Positions 4,985 through 64,000 of a stretch of DNA of 64,000 nt are shown piece after piece. The DNA is from Streptomyces chrestomyceticus JCM 4735 (lineage in GTDB: Bacteria > Actinomycetota > Actinomycetes > Streptomycetales > Streptomycetaceae): positions 8,060,001-8,124,000 of the forward strand of contig NZ_BHZC01000001.1 in NCBI RefSeq assembly GCF_003865135.1. The letters are read 5' to 3'. Position 1 is the first letter of the stretch; each line of letters opens with the position of its first letter. Under the pieces are notes generated by a model, which had not been told where the DNA came from, did no database searches, and saw nothing but the letters and a program-made list of their open reading frames with translations. Position numbers and translations under genes: made by a program.

Positions 4985-5016
4985 AGGAGGGCTGCGCCTT
5001 CGGTCCCGGCCCGGCG
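4968..5016. terminator. possible terminator between convergent genes
   Basis: A perfect 12-bp inverted repeat (CGCCGGGCCGGG at 4968-4979 and its complement at 5005-5016) encloses a 25-nt loop that contains the kinase stop codon. It lies in the short gap between the kinase gene and the convergent alpha-galactosidase gene. There is no U-tract, and the long loop lowers confidence. Confidence 0.35.
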
Positions 5017-11868: not shown

Positions 11869-13428
11869 ATGACGGGAGTACGGACGAACACGGTCGACGG
11901 AGTCCTGCGGCGCAGCGCGCGCCGGACGCCCGAGCGTACGGCGGTGATCCACGGCGACCGGTCCTGGACCTACCGCGAACTGGACGACGCGGTGACGGCC
12001 GCCGCGTACGCCCTGCTGGACACCGGGCTCCGGCCCGGCGACCGGGTCGCCGCGTACGGGCACAACTCCGACGCGTACGTGATCGGATTCCTGGGCTGCG
12101 CCCGCGCGGGCCTGGTGCACGTACCCGTCAACCACCACCTCACCGGCGACGAACTGCGCTACATCCTCGAACAGTCGGGCAGCGCCCTCGTCCTCACCGA
12201 CCCCGCGCTGGAGCACCGGCTGCCGTCCGGAGTACGCACCATGCCGCTGCGCGACGCGGCCGGGTCGCTGCTGGAGCGCGCGCGGGAGGCGCTGCCGTAC
12301 GGGCCGCCCGTTCCGCGTGGTGCGCAGGGCCCGTGCGATTCGCGTGATCCGTACGCCTCAGGCTCCGACGACCTGGCCCAGCTCCTCTACACCTCCGGCA
12401 CGACCGGGCTGCCCAAGGGCGCGATGATGACGCACGGCGCGCTGGTGCACGCGTACGCGTCCGCCGTCGCCGCCCTGGACCTCAAGGCCGCCGACCGGCC
12501 CGTGCACTGCCTGCCGCTCTACCATTCGGCGCAGTTGCACGTCTTCCTGATGCCGTACCTGGCCGTGGGCGCGGAGAACGTCATCCTCGACGCCCCGGAC
12601 CCGCAGCGGATCTTCGACCTGGTGGAGGCGGGCCGGGCCGACAGCCTCTTCGCGCCGCCCACCGTCTGGATCGGCCTCTCCCAGCACCCCGGCTTCGGCA
12701 CGCGGGACCTCAGCGGTCTGCGCAAGGCGTACTACGGCGCCTCCGTCATGCCGGTGCCCGTGTTGGAACGGCTGCGCGCCCGGCTGCCCGATCTCGCCTT
12801 CTACAACTGCTTCGGACAGAGCGAGATCGGCCCGCTGGCCACCGTCCTGGGGCCGGACGAGCATGAGGGCCGGATGGACTCGTGCGGCCGTCCGGTGCTG
12901 TTCGTGGAGGCCCGGGTGGTGGACGAGCACGGCACCGAAGTGCCGGACGGCACCCCCGGGGAGATCGTCTACCGCTCGCCCCAGTTGTGCTCGGGCTACT
13001 GGGACAAGCCGGAGGAGACCGCGGCGGCGTTCCGGGACGGCTGGTTCCGCTCGGGGGACTTGGCGACGCGTGACGCGGCGGGCTGCTTCACCGTGGTCGA
13101 CCGGGTCAAGGACGTCATCAACTCGGGCGGTGTCCTGGTCGCCTCGCGGCAGGTCGAGGACGCGCTGTACGCGCATCCCGCGGTCGCCGAGGTGGCGGTG
13201 ATCGGGCTGCCGGACGAGCGCTGGATCGAGGCGGTGACCGCCGTGGTCGTACCGCGGGCGGAGACCGGGGCGCCGCGGGAGGCGGAGCTGATCGCGGTCG
13301 CGCGGGAGCGGCTGGCCGGGTTCCAGGTGCCCAAACGGGTGCTGTTCGTCGAGGCGCTGCCGCGCAATGCCAGTGGCAAGATCCTCAAGCGGGAGCTACG
13401 GGACCGGTTCCGCTCCGGCGGAGCGTGA
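11869..13428 (+). CDS. acyl-CoA synthetase (AMP-dependent ligase)
   Basis: 519 residues from ATG 11869; an upstream GTG at 11803 would add 22 non-conserved residues. Core motifs: LLYTSGTTGLPKGAMMTHG near residue 173, YNCFGQSEIGPLAT near 310, the DRVKDVINSGGVLVASRQVE hinge near 415, and the C-terminal NASGKILKRELR lysine. It differs clearly from the preceding ligase, so this is not a recent duplication. Predicted activity is adenylation and thioesterification of a short or medium acyl or aryl acid; the substrate is not identifiable. It probably belongs to the 9-13 kb catabolic operon. Confidence 0.9.
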   Translation: MTGVRTNTVDGVLRRSARRTPERTAVIHGDRSWTYRELDDAVTAAAYALLDTGLRPGDRVAAYGHNSDAYVIGFLGCARAGLVHVPVNHHLTGDELRYILEQSGSALVLTDPALEHRLPSGVRTMPLRDAAGSLLERAREALPYGPPVPRGAQGPCDSRDPYASGSDDLAQLLYTSGTTGLPKGAMMTHGALVHAYASAVAALDLKAADRPVHCLPLYHSAQLHVFLMPYLAVGAENVILDAPDPQRIFDLVEAGRADSLFAPPTVWIGLSQHPGFGTRDLSGLRKAYYGASVMPVPVLERLRARLPDLAFYNCFGQSEIGPLATVLGPDEHEGRMDSCGRPVLFVEARVVDEHGTEVPDGTPGEIVYRSPQLCSGYWDKPEETAAAFRDGWFRSGDLATRDAAGCFTVVDRVKDVINSGGVLVASRQVEDALYAHPAVAEVAVIGLPDERWIEAVTAVVVPRAETGAPREAELIAVARERLAGFQVPKRVLFVEALPRNASGKILKRELRDRFRSGGA

Positions 13429-55335: not shown

Positions 55336-56199
55336 TCAGACGGGGGCCGGTGCGCGGTGCGCGTGGTGCCTGCTGATGTTCTTCTCCAACAGCTCGGTGG
55401 CGCACCGAAGTTCGACGCTGCCGGTCTGGCCCGTGACGGGCAGCCGGCCGTCGGCGTTCTTCAGATCGGCCAGCGCCCCGTCGATGGCGCCGTGCGCGGC
55501 GAACAGGCAGGGTGTGCTGTAGATCGCCACGTCCACACCGAGGTCGGTGAGTTCGGTCAGTGACAGGCGGGGCGATTTGCCGCCCGCGATCTGGTTGAAC
55601 AGCAGAGGTTTGCTGCCCACGACGGACCGGATGCGTTCGATCCACTCCACACTGCGCACCCCGTCCACGAGCACGACGTCCGCGTCCGTCTCGGCGAGCG
55701 CCGCCGCCCGCCGGACGATCTCCGCCTCCTCCGTGGCGTCCGTACGGGCCACCACGACCAGGTCCGTGCGGCTGCTCAGCACCAGGTTGAGCTTGTCCAG
55801 GTACTCCTCCAGCGGAAGGATCAGCTTGCCGTCCGCGTGTCCGCACCGGCGGGGCCTCTTCTGGTCCTCCAGGATCACGCCGGAGGCCCCGGCGCGCTCC
55901 AGGCTCTGGACGACGTGACAGGCGACCTCCGGGTCCACGTAGCCGTCGTCGATGTCCACCAGCAGGTGGTGGGACGGAAAGGCCAGCCGCAGCCGTTCGG
56001 TGAACTGCACCATGTCCGGCCAGGCGATGAAACCGATGTCGGGCAGGCCGTAATAGGATGCCGCGAAACCGAATCCGGAGACGAACATGCCGTCGTAGTG
56101 CTGGGCCGCGATGGAAGCCGAATACATGTCGTAGATACCGATGAGCGGTGTGGTGCGGGGCGACCGGACCGCCTCGCGCAGGGCGCTGCCGTACTGCAT
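55336..56199 (-). CDS. isocitrate lyase/PEP mutase superfamily protein
   Basis: 287 residues from ATG 56199 with SD ggag. TIM-barrel signatures: TTPLIGIYDMYSASIAAQHY (substrate loop), LLVDIDDGYVDPEV (Mg Asp triad), VILEDQKRPRRCGHADGK near 140 and VVARTDATEEAE near 180. The catalytic loop carries Cys (RCGH), as in isocitrate and methylisocitrate lyases, and not the NxL pattern of PEP mutases, so C-C bond cleavage of a substituted malate or citrate type acid is more likely than P-C chemistry. The exact substrate is unknown. First gene of the operon with the secreted protein and the transporter, which suggests uptake and cleavage of one organic acid. Confidence 0.85.
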   Translation of the reverse strand: MQYGSALREAVRSPRTTPLIGIYDMYSASIAAQHYDGMFVSGFGFAASYYGLPDIGFIAWPDMVQFTERLRLAFPSHHLLVDIDDGYVDPEVACHVVQSLERAGASGVILEDQKRPRRCGHADGKLILPLEEYLDKLNLVLSSRTDLVVVARTDATEEAEIVRRAAALAETDADVVLVDGVRSVEWIERIRSVVGSKPLLFNQIAGGKSPRLSLTELTDLGVDVAIYSTPCLFAAHGAIDGALADLKNADGRLPVTGQTGSVELRCATELLEKNISRHHAHRAPAPV

Positions 56200-56464
56200 G
56201 TTTCTCCTGCCTCCCGGACCCGCCGGCCGCGGGTCCTTGGGTTGTTCTTGACCCGACGGTCCCAGGAAACCAAGAGCTAGTAAAAGGATTCCGGGAAGCA
56301 ACACCCGAATGAGGAAACGCCGCAGGCCACGGGGGCTGTTCAGAAATTAGTATGGACTGATGGACGTATCGCGGAAGTGACGTTTCCGCGGGGGGAGTGC
56401 GGGGGCGCAGAGGCGATGAGCTGAAATGCGCCGGAGTCCGCCCGGGCGTTTTCGGACGGCCCGC

Positions 56465-56532: not shown

Positions 56533-60158
<3,626 letters not shown>

Positions 60159-60176
<18 letters not shown>

Positions 60177-61043
60177 GCGCCGGGGGACGAAACGGACGGG
60201 TGTGCCCGGTGCGGCCTGGGCCGCCGCGGCGAGGAACCGCTCCGGCACGACGCCGACGACCGGGTAGCCGCCCGTCGTCGGATGGTCGTTGAGGAAGAGC
60301 ACGGGCAGGCCGTTCGGGGGGACCTGGAGCGCTCCCAGCGGCATGCCCTCGCTGGGCAGCTCGCCGTCCTTGCGGCGTTCCAGGGCCGGTCCCTCGGTAC
60401 GCAGGCCGATGCGGTTGCTCGCCGAGGAGACGCGGAAGCGGCCGGTGGCGAGCGTGCGCAGGCCCGCTTCGGTGAACCAGTCGTCGCGCGGCCCCAGTAC
60501 GCAGGGCAGCACCAGTTCCGCGACCGGCAGCCCCGAGCGCGGGACGGCGTCCACGGAGGCGGGCGGGCCGTACGGAGTGCCGAGCGGCAGCACGCCGCCG
60601 TCGGACAGCGGCGCGGGCCCGAGGCCGGAGAGCAGGTCGGCGGCGCGGCTGCCGAGCACCGGCTCCGCGTCGACGCCGCCGGCGAAGGCGAGGTACGAGC
60701 GGAGCCCGGCGGTGGCCGGTCCGGCGTCCAGCACCGCGCCCGCCGGGACGCGTACCGGCGCTCCCCAAGGGGCGGGGCGGCCGTCCACCGTGACCGGGCA
60801 GGGCGCGCCGGTCACCGCGGCCACGGTGTCCGCGCGGACCCGTACGGCGCAGCCGGTGAGGGTCGTCTCCAGGGTGGCGGACGTCTCCGGATTGCCCACG
60901 AGGCGGTTGGCGAGCCGGTGGGCGGGCTCGTCCAGGGCGCCCGCGCGCGGCACGCCGAGGTGGGCGTGGCCCGCGCGGCCGAGGTCCTGGACGGTGGTCA
61001 GGGCTCCGGCGCGGACGACACAGAAGGCGCGGTCGGTCATCAT
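60159..61043 (-). CDS. pxpC: 5-oxoprolinase subunit PxpC (biotin-dependent carboxyltransferase domain)
   Basis: 294 residues from ATG 61043. KipA/PxpC features: VVRAGALTTVQDLGRAGHAH at the start, LGVPRAGALDEPAHRLANRL, SSASNRIGLRTEGPALER and the end HPTTGGYPVVGVV. With PxpA and PxpB it forms the three-subunit 5-oxoprolinase of prokaryotes; PxpC with PxpB forms the phosphorylating half and PxpA hydrolyses the ring. Its start overlaps the pxpB stop (ATGATGA). A second oxoprolinase of the HyuA-HyuB type lies opposite, so this organism has both kinds side by side. Confidence 0.92.
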
Positions 61044-61726
61044 GCCTCCTGGGATTCCGTAGAAACCGGGATGAAGCGGACGCGGGTGCCGGGGGAGAAC
61101 AGGGCCGCCGGGTCGCGGTCCGGGTCCCACAGGTCGACGTCGCTGGTACCGATGAGCTGCCAGCCGCCGGGCGACGAGCGCGGATAGACGCCGGTGTACG
61201 GGCCCGCCAGGGCGACCGAGCCGACCGGGACCTTGGTGCGCGGTGTGGCCCGGCGCGGTACGTGGTGGCGTTCCGGCAGGCCCGTCAGGTAGCCGAAGCC
61301 GGGCGCGAAGCCGCAGAACGCGACGTGGAATTCGGTGCCGGAGTGGATACGGACCACGTCCTCGGGCGTGGTGTCCCACAGGGCGGCCACGTCGGCGAGG
61401 TCGGGTCCGTCGTAGCGCACCGGGATCTCGACGGCGGGCCGGTCGCCGGCGGTGGCCGGGGGAATGTCCCAGCCGGGCAGCTCGGCGGCCAGCCGTCCCG
61501 GGTCGGCCAGCCCGTCCAGCAGGACCGTACGGGCGGCCGGGACGATCTCGCGGACCGCGGGCAGGGTGCCGGCGGCGGCGCGGCGCAGCAGCTCGGCGTG
61601 GAACGCCTCGACGGCCGCGGCGTCCTCCAGCTCGACCAGCAGTCCGTGGTCGCCGACCGGCAGCGGGCGCAGGGGCAGCGGTGAGCGGCCGGCCGGGGCG
61701 CGGCCGCCGGGGGTACGGGTGCTCAC
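61040..61726 (-). CDS. pxpB: 5-oxoprolinase subunit PxpB (KipI-like)
   Basis: 228 residues from GTG 61726, overlapping the pxpA stop (GTGA). KipI/allophanate hydrolase subunit 1 features: PLPVGDHGLLVELEDAAAVE near the start, EIPVRYDGPDLADVAAL near 115, and the signature FCGFAPGFGYLTGLPERHHV with TPRTKVPVGSVALAG. The N-terminal 18 residues are Pro/Gly-rich. Works with PxpC and PxpA in ATP-driven opening of 5-oxoproline. Confidence 0.92.
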   Translation of the reverse strand: MSTRTPGGRAPAGRSPLPLRPLPVGDHGLLVELEDAAAVEAFHAELLRRAAAGTLPAVREIVPAARTVLLDGLADPGRLAAELPGWDIPPATAGDRPAVEIPVRYDGPDLADVAALWDTTPEDVVRIHSGTEFHVAFCGFAPGFGYLTGLPERHHVPRRATPRTKVPVGSVALAGPYTGVYPRSSPGGWQLIGTSDVDLWDPDRDPAALFSPGTRVRFIPVSTESQEA

Positions 61727-62498
61727 GCGAAGCTGCCGATCCGCACGCCGGCCGCGGTCAGCTCGTCGCGCACCCGGCGTGCCAGGTCCGCGGCGCCGGG
61801 GGTGTCGCCGTGCAGGCAGAGTGAGCGCGCTTCGATCTTCACGGTGCTGCCGTCGACGGCGGTGACGATGCCTTCCGTCGCCATGCCCAGCGCGCGCCTG
61901 ACGACCTCGTCCGGGTCGTGGACGACGGCGCCCGGCTCGCGGCGGGAGACCAGGGTGCCTTCGGGGTGTAGGCACGGTCGGCGAACGCCTCGCCGACGAC
62001 GGGCAGGCCGACGCGGCGGGCCGCCTCGTGGAGCTGGGAGCCGGGCAGGCCGAGGATGGGCAGCGGGGTGCCGGCGGTCCGTACGCCCTCCAGGACGGCG
62101 GCGGACTGGGCCTCGTCGTGGACACAGCGGTTGTAGAGCGCGCCGTGCGGCTTGACGTAGCCGACCCGGGTGCCGGCGGCGCGGGCGAAGACCTCCAACG
62201 CGCCGATCTGGTACGCGATCTCGTCGGCCAGCTCGCGCGGCGGTACGTCCATGGCCCGGCGCCCGAAGCCCGCGAGGTCGCGGTAGGAGACCTGGGCGCC
62301 GACCACCACGCCGCGCTCGGCGGCCAGCTCGCAGACCCGGCGCATGGTGCTGGGGTCCCCGGCGTGGAAACCGCAGGCCACGTTGGCGCTGGTGACGACG
62401 GAGAGCAGGGCCTCGTCGTCGGTGAGCTCCCAGCGTCCGAAGCCTTCCCCGAGGTCGGCGTTGAGGTCGACGAGGGGGGTGGTCACCGGGTCGCTCAT
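61723..62498 (-). pseudogene. pxpA: 5-oxoprolinase subunit PxpA (LamB/YcsF), single frameshift
   Basis: ATG 62498 opens LVDLNADLGEGFGRWELTDD, then VTSANVACGFHAGDPSTMRR and VGYVKPHGALYNRCVHDEAQ, all LamB/YcsF signatures with the metal and substrate residues. After AFADRAYTP the frame breaks; the C-terminal part (LVSRREPGAVVHDPDEVV, SLCLHGDTPGAADLARRV) is in another frame. Adding one C to the run at 61963-61966 (GGGG on the plus strand) gives ...TPEGTLVSRR..., total 259 codons, a normal PxpA length. The conserved C-terminal catalytic His in LCLHGDTPG is recovered, so the gene is probably intact in the organism. First gene of pxpABC. Confidence 0.88.
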
Positions 62499-62632
62499 GA
62501 AGTCGCAAGTCCGTTCCGGAGGTGGCCGCCACACGGGCGGGCGCACAGGCCGCAGAGGTTGGGGGACCGGCCGGCCCGTATCCGTAGTGGCTCTCCCCCT
62601 GGGGGCACTCGGGCCGGCCGGTGGTCAGGCCA

Positions 62633-62661
62633 ACGTAAGCGATCGTTCAACGATCCGACAA
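62633..62661 (-). promoter_or_regulatory. promoter-operator of pxpABC
   Basis: On the minus strand: a -35-like TTGTCG (62656-62661), the dyad GATCGTT-G-AACGATC (62641-62655, perfect 7-bp arms around one base) and a -10-like TTACGT (62633-62638), with a 17-bp spacer. The dyad fills the spacer, so a bound repressor would block the polymerase. The same arrangement recurs in inverted orientation before the transporter gene at 63514. The presumed binder is the GntR protein encoded at 62749. Confidence 0.75.
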
Positions 62662-62748
62662 GAGGTGTGTTGTCTCGTTCTGCCATCTGGGATTGACTGC
62701 CGCTCACAGCACAAGGGGTGCAGGTACGGGGCGAAAGCGGGGACGACG

Positions 62749-63483
62749 ATGACGGGCGGGATGACACGGGGCGACCGGCACAGGCTCGCCGAGGTCTCGG
62801 AGCTGGCGGGCGACCGGGTGCTGCTGGGGCGCTCCAGCACCGCGGAGCGGGTCGCCGACATTCTCCGGGACCGCATCACCGAGGGCTACTTCCCACCCGG
62901 CGCGCGGCTGTCCGAGGAGAGCATCGGCGGGGCCCTGGGGGTCTCGCGGAACACCCTGCGGGAGGCGTTCCGCCTGCTCACGCACGAGCGCCTGCTGGTG
63001 CACCAGCTCAACCGCGGGGTTTTCGTGCGCATCGTGACGGTGGCGGACCTGGACGACATCTACCGGGTCCGTACGCTCGTGGAGTGCGCGGCGGTTCGCA
63101 GTCTGGGCGAGCCGCCGCACCCGGTGGGGGCGATGGAGGCGGCCGTGGTGGCCGGTGAGACGGCCTTCGAGGAGCGTGCCTGGCGGGACCTGGGTACCGC
63201 GAACCTCCGGTTCCATCAGGCGGTGGCGGGGCTGGCGGGCAGTCCGCGCACCGACGAGCTGATGCGCGGGGTGCTCGCGGAGCTGCGGCTGGTCTTTCAC
63301 GTGATGGACGATCCACGCCGGTTCCACGCGCCGTACCTGACCCGCAACCGGCAGATCCTGGAGGAGCTCCAGGCCGGTGACGGAGCCGCCGCCGAGCTGC
63401 TGCTGGAGTCCTATCTGGAGGACTCCAGGGTGCAGCTTTCCGGGGCGTACGCCCAGCGCATAGCGGCGCGGGAGGGCGTGTAG
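62749..63483 (+). CDS. GntR family (FCD) transcriptional regulator
   Basis: 244 residues from ATG 62749; ATG 62761 is an alternative. The winged helix spans about residues 30-95 (LRDRITEGYFPPGARLSEES, then GVSRNTLREAFRLLTHERLL). The FCD effector domain (about 105-235) has DLDDIYRVRTLVECAAV and a metal-type His in LRFHQAVAG and LVFHVMDD. FCD regulators bind small organic acids, here most probably 5-oxoproline or a related metabolite. The gene lies between two copies of the same operator, facing pxpABC and the transporter gene, strong evidence that it controls both. Confidence 0.92.
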   Translation: MTGGMTRGDRHRLAEVSELAGDRVLLGRSSTAERVADILRDRITEGYFPPGARLSEESIGGALGVSRNTLREAFRLLTHERLLVHQLNRGVFVRIVTVADLDDIYRVRTLVECAAVRSLGEPPHPVGAMEAAVVAGETAFEERAWRDLGTANLRFHQAVAGLAGSPRTDELMRGVLAELRLVFHVMDDPRRFHAPYLTRNRQILEELQAGDGAAAELLLESYLEDSRVQLSGAYAQRIAAREGV

Positions 63484-63513
63484 AGGCGCTGGAGTTTCAC
63501 TCCTGTCAACCCC

Positions 63514-63543
63514 TTGTCGGATCGTTGAACAATCGCCTAACCT
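63514..63543 (+). promoter_or_regulatory. promoter-operator of the DUF969 transporter gene
   Basis: On the plus strand: TTGTCG (63514-63519), the dyad GATCGTT-G-AACAATC (63520-63534, one mismatch) and a -10-like CTAACC or TAACCT starting at 63537-63538. The reverse complement agrees with the 62633-62661 site in 23 of 24 bases across the dyad and -35 region. Confidence 0.75.
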
Positions 63544-63596
63544 CCTCGCATCCTCCTCACGGTCCGCGTGGGGTCCCGTATGCGGAAGGCGGACCC

Positions 63597-64000
63597 ATGA
63601 TCGTGCTTCTCGGCGTGCTCGTGGTCGTGGTCGGCTTCGCCACCAAACGCAATGCCCTGCTGGTCGTGGGCGTTGCGGGCATCGTCACCGGCCTGCTCGG
63701 CGGTCTGTCGCCGCAGGAGGTCCTGGCGGCCTTCGGCACCGGCTTCGCGAGCAGCCGGGCGGTGACGATCTTCGCGATCACCCTCCCGGTGATCGGCCTG
63801 CTGGAGCGCTACGGCCTCCAGGAGCAGGCCCGCCGGCTGATCGCCCGCTTCGCCAAACTGACCACCGGCCGCTTCCTCGCCCTCTACCTGGGCATGCGGC
63901 AGATCGGCGCGGCCGTCGGGCTCACGCACGTCTTCGGGCACGCGCAGACCGTGCGCCCGCTGGCCGTGCCGATGGCCGAGGGCGCCGCCGAGCGCAAGCA
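63597..64000 (+). CDS. 5-oxoproline transporter, DUF969 subunit (partial)
   Basis: The first 134 codons from ATG 63597 (SD ggaagg); the gene runs off the window. The N-terminus is hydrophobic (MIVLLGVLVVVVGFATKRNA, then LLVVGVAGIVTGLLGGLSP) and a second hydrophobic part is AVTIFAITLPVIGLLERYGL, with the DUF969 signature MRQIGAAVGLTHVFGHAQTV. DUF969 and DUF979 proteins form a two-part membrane carrier that is commonly linked to 5-oxoprolinase genes. The upstream operator shared with pxpABC supports uptake of 5-oxoproline. The DUF979 gene would be expected next, beyond the window. Confidence 0.88.
   Translation, partial: MIVLLGVLVVVVGFATKRNALLVVGVAGIVTGLLGGLSPQEVLAAFGTGFASSRAVTIFAITLPVIGLLERYGLQEQARRLIARFAKLTTGRFLALYLGMRQIGAAVGLTHVFGHAQTVRPLAVPMAEGAAERK

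Follow-up and report, generated by a model that had tools for sequence, protein, structure and literature searches.

A PxpR-type regulator gene between two promoter-embedded operators: a putative 5-oxoproline regulon in Streptomyces chrestomyceticus

In Streptomyces chrestomyceticus JCM 4735, a gene for a GntR-type regulator lies between the 5-oxoprolinase gene pxpA and a gene for a DUF969 transporter subunit, and nearly the same short dyad stands before each of these two neighbours. Which protein reads the two dyads, and to what signal would it respond? Here we examine the 64,000-nucleotide stretch of DNA that holds this locus (the window) together with related genomes, and conclude with high confidence that a single PxpR-type repressor, whose gene lies between the dyads, uses both of them as operators, with 5-oxoproline (5-OP, pyroglutamate) freeing both operons. 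The sequence and position of the sites, their conservation and the orthology of the regulator are established here.

Site A (GATCGTTCAACGATC), a perfect dyad by direct reading of the sequence, lies between pxpA on the minus strand and the GntR/FCD gene on the plus strand, about 93 bp upstream of the latter; site B lies between the end of the GntR/FCD gene and the DUF969 gene, also on the plus strand (Table 1). Both occupy the 18-bp spacer of a TTGTCG/TANNNT promoter whose hexamers are promoter-like and putative, and the two sites are inverted copies, because the promoter of A faces pxpA and that of B faces DUF969. A first-pass annotation of this DNA had described two inverted dyads in -35/-10 spacers flanking the GntR/FCD gene, with about 23 of 24 bases agreeing beyond the dyad. 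Both dyads were found in these places, and in promoter orientation the block CTTGTCGGATCGTTGAACRATCGC aligns with 23 of 24 positions identical between the two sites (the 24 bases counted by eye).

In a genome-wide motif scan, as the annotation had proposed, the pattern GATCGTTNAACRATC matched only at sites A and B in all 9,377,418 bp, whereas its reversed control matched nowhere; about 0.004 occurrences per strand per genome would be expected by chance under an independent-base model with an assumed 72% G+C. Tolerating up to three mismatches within the window gave three matches, namely sites A and B (0 mismatches) and one at 12963 (3 mismatches). Shuffled windows held 1.26 such matches on average, and at least three in 11 of 100 shuffles; only the exact dyad matches are therefore informative.

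Table 1. Features of the locus. Positions are those of the window except where L003 is named; start codons of pxpR and pxpABC are inferred.
Feature	Position	Strand	Basis and remarks
Operator A (PxpR box)	62641..62655	-	GATCGTTSAACGATC in pxpA promoter spacer; reads GATCGTTCAACGATC
-35-like hexamer TTGTCG, pxpA promoter	62656..62661	-	Read directly; relatives' alignment
-10-like hexamer TACGTT, pxpA promoter	62632..62637	-	18 bp from -35; read directly; relatives' alignment
Operator B (PxpR box)	63520..63534	+	GATCGTTGAACAATC in DUF969 promoter spacer
-35-like hexamer TTGTCG, DUF969 promoter	63514..63519	+	Read directly; relatives' alignment
-10-like hexamer TAACCT, DUF969 promoter	63538..63543	+	18 bp from -35; read directly; relatives' alignment
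pxpR, PxpR orthologue (GntR regulator with FCD effector domain)	62749..63483	+	Pfam, reciprocal best hits, tree
pxpA, 5-oxoprolinase subunit A	about 61723..62498 (elsewhere to 62546)	-	LamB_YcsF 5.6e-74, first part only
pxpB, carboxyltransferase subdomain C and D	61040..61726	-	CT_C_D 2.4e-59
pxpC, carboxyltransferase subdomain A and B	60159..61043	-	CT_A_B 1.1e-84
DUF969 transporter subunit	63597..64000, runs beyond window end	+	ATG at 63597; Pfam
DUF979	L003 10301-11269		After DUF969, past window end; Pfam 7.9e-117
Pyroglutamyl-peptidase I (pcp)	L003 11359-12012		After DUF979; 9.7e-84
OPLAH-like HyuAB (Hydantoinase_A/B)	56533-60176		Broken into two frames; convergent with pxpC

Pfam assigns the regulator a GntR helix-turn-helix (HTH) domain (1.2e-15) and an FCD-type ligand domain (1.6e-16). 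NCBIfam gave sub-cut-off matches only, and its name was rejected on that ground (the best match, phnR_burk, scored 95.7 bits where 271.5 are required). The adjacent DUF969 and DUF979 genes belong by Pfam to both subunit families of a candidate 5-OP transporter, and neither had an NCBIfam match at E 0.001. The pxpABC genes, reportedly discovered by Niehaus et al. (JBC), stand on the other side of the regulator. With pcp, DUF969/DUF979 and pxpABC present, the unit therefore brings together the release of 5-OP from peptides, its predicted uptake and the opening of its ring. Further out, a gene of the PEP mutase/isocitrate lyase family (55339-56304, minus strand) adjoins the HyuAB gene.

Two reading frames are broken in the assembly, that of pxpA near 61,950, with its C-terminal part in another frame, and that of the OPLAH-like gene near 58,820. 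Among relatives, all six that were checked have pxpA in a single frame, and L035, L037 and L043 each have an unbroken hydantoinase gene. The breaks may be assembly errors or real losses; if they are real, the strain keeps the switch and may have lost both oxoprolinases, and if they are errors, nothing changes for the reading of the regulon.

A regulator of this kind has been defined experimentally in Corynebacterium glutamicum. According to the available portions of that study (Sundermeyer et al. 2026, PMC13274462), pxpTABC is under the repression of PxpR, a GntR regulator; reporter expression rose 6.5-fold when the site agattgttcaacaatct was mutated or deleted and 3-fold when pxpR was deleted, and the 17-bp site had earlier been predicted by RegPrecise. 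The protein binds 5-OP with a KD of 726 nM (~0.7 µM) and does not bind Glu, Gln, Pro or Asp (PMC13274462). We find that agattgttcaacaatct contains GATTGTTCAACAATC; compared with the latter, site A has two changed bases in symmetric positions and site B a single one. A dyad of the GATTGTTCAACAATC type is present at both putatively controlled promoters of the window, and, judged from the genes present and from where the sites lie, one site precedes pxpABC and the other the predicted 5-OP transporter.

The two systems share a GntR regulator with a C-terminal ligand domain beside pxpABC, the core dyad, the pathway and an orthologous regulator. They differ in the transporter, which is the Nramp-like PxpT in C. 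glutamicum and DUF969/DUF979 with pcp here, and in the operators: the portions of PMC13274462 at hand describe one, downstream of the predicted -10, whereas here there are two, each between a -35-like and a -10-like hexamer. We take operator placement relative to the -10 to be a detail and not a defining trait; the promoter geometry differs from that of C. glutamicum, and the proposed regulatory logic is the same.

Orthology was assessed through a stand-in. A scan of our species collection with the Corynebacterium 17-mer gave 94 stretches, and C. glutamicum is not among the 80 of them listed; a close relative, L213, took its place. L213 has the exact 17-bp site, and the start of its regulator gene matches the cg1143 primer at 18 of 19 positions; four other C. 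glutamicum primer pieces had no match in it within two mismatches, and L213 is therefore a close relative and not C. glutamicum itself. The window regulator is 40% identical to the L213 PxpR over 196 aa, and the two are reciprocal best hits (1.5e-32 against 5.3e-14 for the next hit, and 8.4e-33 against 9.9e-7). In a tree of 33 proteins, a branch with support of 100/99 parts 15 FCD paralogues from 14 PxpR rows, namely those of the window, of L213, of eight further stretches carrying the 17-mer and of four same-genus loci. Another four best hits, from Corynebacterium, group with PxpR. In this tree L213 has a long branch and an unsure place, and the same-genus row L066 lacks an adjoining site. 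An alignment of ten homologues shows almost no variation in the HTH stretch SRNTLREAF. On the reciprocal best hits and the tree, the GntR/FCD gene of the window is judged to be the PxpR orthologue by way of L213.

Within Corynebacterium, a search for the 17-mer at up to one mismatch, covering 201 genomes from the genus to which L153 (Candidatus Corynebacterium faecigallinarum) belongs, found matches in 43 genomes and a single control match. At eight of 30 site loci fetched there, the stretch encodes a homologue of PxpR at E below 1e-40. Four other Corynebacterium genomes have a best PxpR hit of E 1e-53 to 1e-57, clear of the next, and no site within 1.5 kb of it.

By analogy with C. glutamicum, we infer PxpR binding, steric block and induction by 5-OP in this organism as follows. 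Without 5-OP, a PxpR dimer would occupy the spacer of both promoters and block RNA polymerase at pxpABC, which would encode an ATP-dependent 5-oxoprolinase, and at DUF969-DUF979-pcp, which would provide the predicted 5-OP uptake together with release of 5-OP from blocked peptides. Binding of 5-OP to the FCD domain would make PxpR let go, and both operons would be expressed; site A may in addition autoregulate pxpR. The specificity for 5-OP assumed here would follow from orthology to the stand-in at the 40% identity given above. The first-pass annotation had likewise predicted a GntR repressor that is released by 5-OP and controls both breakdown and uptake, a prediction that the Corynebacterium regulator and its orthology to the present one support. 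A ligand-released GntR repressor of neighbouring genes is an ordinary kind of system.

The same regulon might have as its natural inducer a derivative and not L-5-OP itself, such as D-5-oxoproline, gamma-glutamyl phosphate or a lactam processed by the products of the adjacent hydantoinase/oxoprolinase genes. Several neighbourhoods are consistent with this: a D-glutamate cyclase gene (PF07286) lies beside pxp genes in two locus relatives (L048 and L060), the OPLAH-like HyuAB gene meets pxpC tail to tail here and follows it on the same strand in L093, and PxpR paralogues stand beside OPLAH-like HyuAB with no pxpABC in the fetched stretches of L051, L066 and L068. We nevertheless consider it improbable, as C. 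glutamicum PxpR binds 5-OP at 0.7 µM and leaves the four amino acids named above unbound (the available parts of PMC13274462), and pcp, the product of whose enzyme is 5-OP, comes after DUF979. The HyuAB-linked PxpR-like genes are possibly a sister sensor for another lactam; genome G088 carries both kinds of locus (L067 and L068). No additional operator precedes the HyuAB gene in the window at up to three mismatches.

The pairing of PxpR with the dyad was followed through 199 genomes of the same genus. Of these, 138 encode a close homologue of PxpR (best E under 1e-48, the present/absent split counted from the table of hits), and 126 contain the exact motif GATYGTTNAACRATC; the reversed control occurs in none of the 199. 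The exact motif is present in 125/138 genomes with PxpR as against 1/61 without it (Fisher 1e-36, with the kinship of the 199 genomes ignored). The lone exception, G152, is a fragmented assembly with its site between pxpA and DUF969 (L092). Thirteen genomes have PxpR and no exact motif, and 11 of these hold a one-mismatch site beside PxpR; G051 has a two-mismatch site (L072), and G060 has PxpR and no site in the genome at up to one mismatch. In a sample of the same family, a motif scan alone found the motif in 29 of 101 genomes and 9 of 17 genera.

These distributions bear on the reading in which the dyads are operators of another FCD-family repressor and the adjacent GntR gene is incidental. 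The motif does resemble the general box of the FadR subfamily, TKGT/ACMA with 3 nt between GT and AC, whose operators share the GT-N3-AC core palindrome with the window dyads (Suvorova et al. 2015, PMC4494728, as far as its text was available), and GntR paralogues are many in this genome (18 matches). This reading is very unlikely, however, given that the exact motif is absent from 60/61 genomes without PxpR despite other GntR-type matches in them, and that in Micrococcales, some Corynebacterium and Proteobacteria it is found near this one clade. The main text of PMC4494728 contains neither 'oxoprolin' nor 'LamB', so the regulon is absent from it in those words.

A PxpR-type repressor reading both dyads is also consistent with the layout of individual loci. 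We compared 41 of them, comprising the window and 40 fetched loci that were hand-picked across high and low identity and do not form a random sample. A site with at most one mismatch lies upstream of PxpR in 38; the other three are L066, L068 and L072 (two mismatches). DUF969 follows PxpR in 22 loci, of which 19 have a second site (at most one mismatch), and a second site occurs in none of the 19 loci without DUF969 after PxpR, among them L051, whose stretch ends ~200 bp past PxpR. L061 and L062 have a second site with two mismatches, and L056 has DUF969 and no second site at up to two. Downstream of PxpR in L048, DUF969, most of DUF979 and the second site are all absent, and the following ORF, by eye from its translation, reads as the tail of DUF979, then pcp. 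The dyads are thus kept in relatives with the same genes, and the lack of conservation that the annotation had named as telling against its reading was not seen.

Sites also occur away from pxpR. We fetched 20 stretches selected from the listed sites distant from pxpR, and eight of these lie between divergent pxpA and DUF969-DUF979-pcp and carry two sites each (exact or with one mismatch). Each of the 16 sites is immediately preceded by a TTGTNN hexamer, which reads TTGTCG on the pxpA side and TTGTTA or TTGTTC on the DUF969 side, and a TANNNT hexamer lies at a spacing of 18 bp in 14 and 17 bp in two (the DUF969 side of L078 and of L084). Control of these unlinked loci by PxpR in trans is possible on this sequence pattern. 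The annotation had called the repressor local, a term that is too narrow, because apparently controlled genes lie far from pxpR in some relatives.

That the dyads are chance occurrences or neutral duplicates without regulatory role has a negligible probability, since the two copies in the genome and their partial sharing by descent among related genomes have to be set against the expectation of ~0.004 per strand per genome (independent bases, assumed G+C), the retention of their position in promoter spacers while the flanks diverged, and their presence at the unlinked pxp/DUF969 loci.

The suggestion that the whole block was conserved or duplicated holds in its first half, as the block stands at both promoters. 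Recent duplication of one promoter block is not favoured: in the aligned loci the -10 is mostly TACNTT on the pxpA side and mostly TAGCCT or TAACCT on the DUF969 side, and at the eight unlinked loci the -35 hexamers differ too, with TTGTTA or TTGTTC on the DUF969 side and TTGTCG on the pxpA side. These differences at the -10s and the unlinked -35s are better explained by selection for promoter-operator geometry than by recent copying.

The remaining 12 of the 20 unlinked stretches hold no 5-OP gene within the stretch; several of their sites lie within coding sequence, and others stand ahead of other genes. These sites may be chance matches, targets of other FCD repressors or unknown members of the regulon, and other FCD repressors or further targets may therefore use the same dyad. 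In L074 (5001-5108), three dyads, one exact and two with one mismatch, lie in 108 bp, and the 10 kb fetched around them shows no 5-OP gene. The dyad also recurs near two other shared gene families (L075, L082 and L083; L076 and L080), grouped from shared C-terminal letters only, often with one extra symmetric base pair (GGATNGTT...AACNATCC); these dyads are possibly operators of a different GntR repressor.

How far does the PxpR-operator pair reach? Among the 80 listed of the 94 stretches from the species collection, a relative of the cluster is encoded in 30 and none was detected in 50; PxpA is encoded in 25, with the site beside the pxpA start in 23 (coordinates by eye). Strong PxpR homologues (E below 1e-58) are found in 10 of the listed stretches, six from Micrococcales, two from Pseudomonas and one each from Azospirillum and Pokkaliibacter. 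The transporter varies among operator-bearing clusters: Nramp-like carriers occur in two Pseudomonas loci, two Corynebacterium loci and the same-genus L069, and MFS carriers in L052, L048 and L071. In Pseudarthrobacter L105, a site precedes pxpA of a DUF969/DUF979 cluster, and no site at up to one mismatch precedes DUF969.

DUF969/DUF979 here is predicted to be a 5-OP transporter by analogy with cj0552-4 of Campylobacter jejuni, a mutant of which no longer grew with 5-OP as its only source of nitrogen (PMC12795558, available in part). The same two families make up that suggested transporter; the comparison is at the level of families, and the accessible part of PMC12795558 describes no PxpR control. 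PDB 2HS5, a solved structure with the molecule name 'putative transcriptional regulator GntR' and no function in that name, is 50% identical to the window regulator over 228 aligned columns (E 7e-63) and is placed with PxpR by a branch of 99/98 support in a tree of 17 rows; it is likely a PxpR homologue. We lean towards an ancient PxpR-operator pair, spanning Actinobacteria and Proteobacteria, in which the dyad is near-constant, the uptake gene has been swapped repeatedly (DUF969/DUF979, Nramp-like, MFS) and 2HS5 is an unrecognised member. On this reading, the dyad could therefore single out 5-OP transporters in unassigned families.

The PxpR regulator and its operator are already known from Corynebacterium; here the transporter and the promoter geometry are different. 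Absent from the literature examined, some of it available in part, are two promoter-embedded operators, DUF969/DUF979 and pcp as members of the regulon, the unlinked copies, and 2HS5 as a likely PxpR homologue. A literature search by title found nothing on PxpR in Streptomyces, and a RegPrecise prediction for streptomycetes may exist. These observations extend an experimentally defined Corynebacterium pyroglutamate sensor to this Streptomyces genome and its genus, and the shared operator ties DUF969/DUF979 and pcp to 5-OP, unlinked loci included. We propose GATYGTTNAACRATC inside a TTGTNN/TANNNT promoter beside pxp genes as a simple marker for further 5-OP transport genes.

A strong hairpin (CCGGCCGGCCCG...CGGGCCGGCCGG, core GGAGAGCCACTACGGA; 62566-62624, minus strand) starts just past the pxpA promoter, within a leader of roughly 125 nt. 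In eight fetched relatives the pxpA promoter is followed by similar sequence, for which predictions give the same stem in L034, L035, L042, L049 and L050; 6 of 199 genomes contain the exact core GGAGAGYYACTACGGA, with one copy in each, ~60 bp from the pxpA-side operator. An Rfam scan of 62300-63700 found no known RNA element up to E 0.1. Consensus folding of eight hairpin sequences gave only one pair with a double-sided change, a weak test because several of the slices were without the full 5' arm. A structured leader RNA as regulator is not favoured, and the hairpin is noted as an observation. In the unlinked L078, L084 and L085, an apparent GTG start lies a few bases after the pxpA -10 (~4985-5015), which suggests that pxpA transcripts there are leaderless, unlike that of the window.
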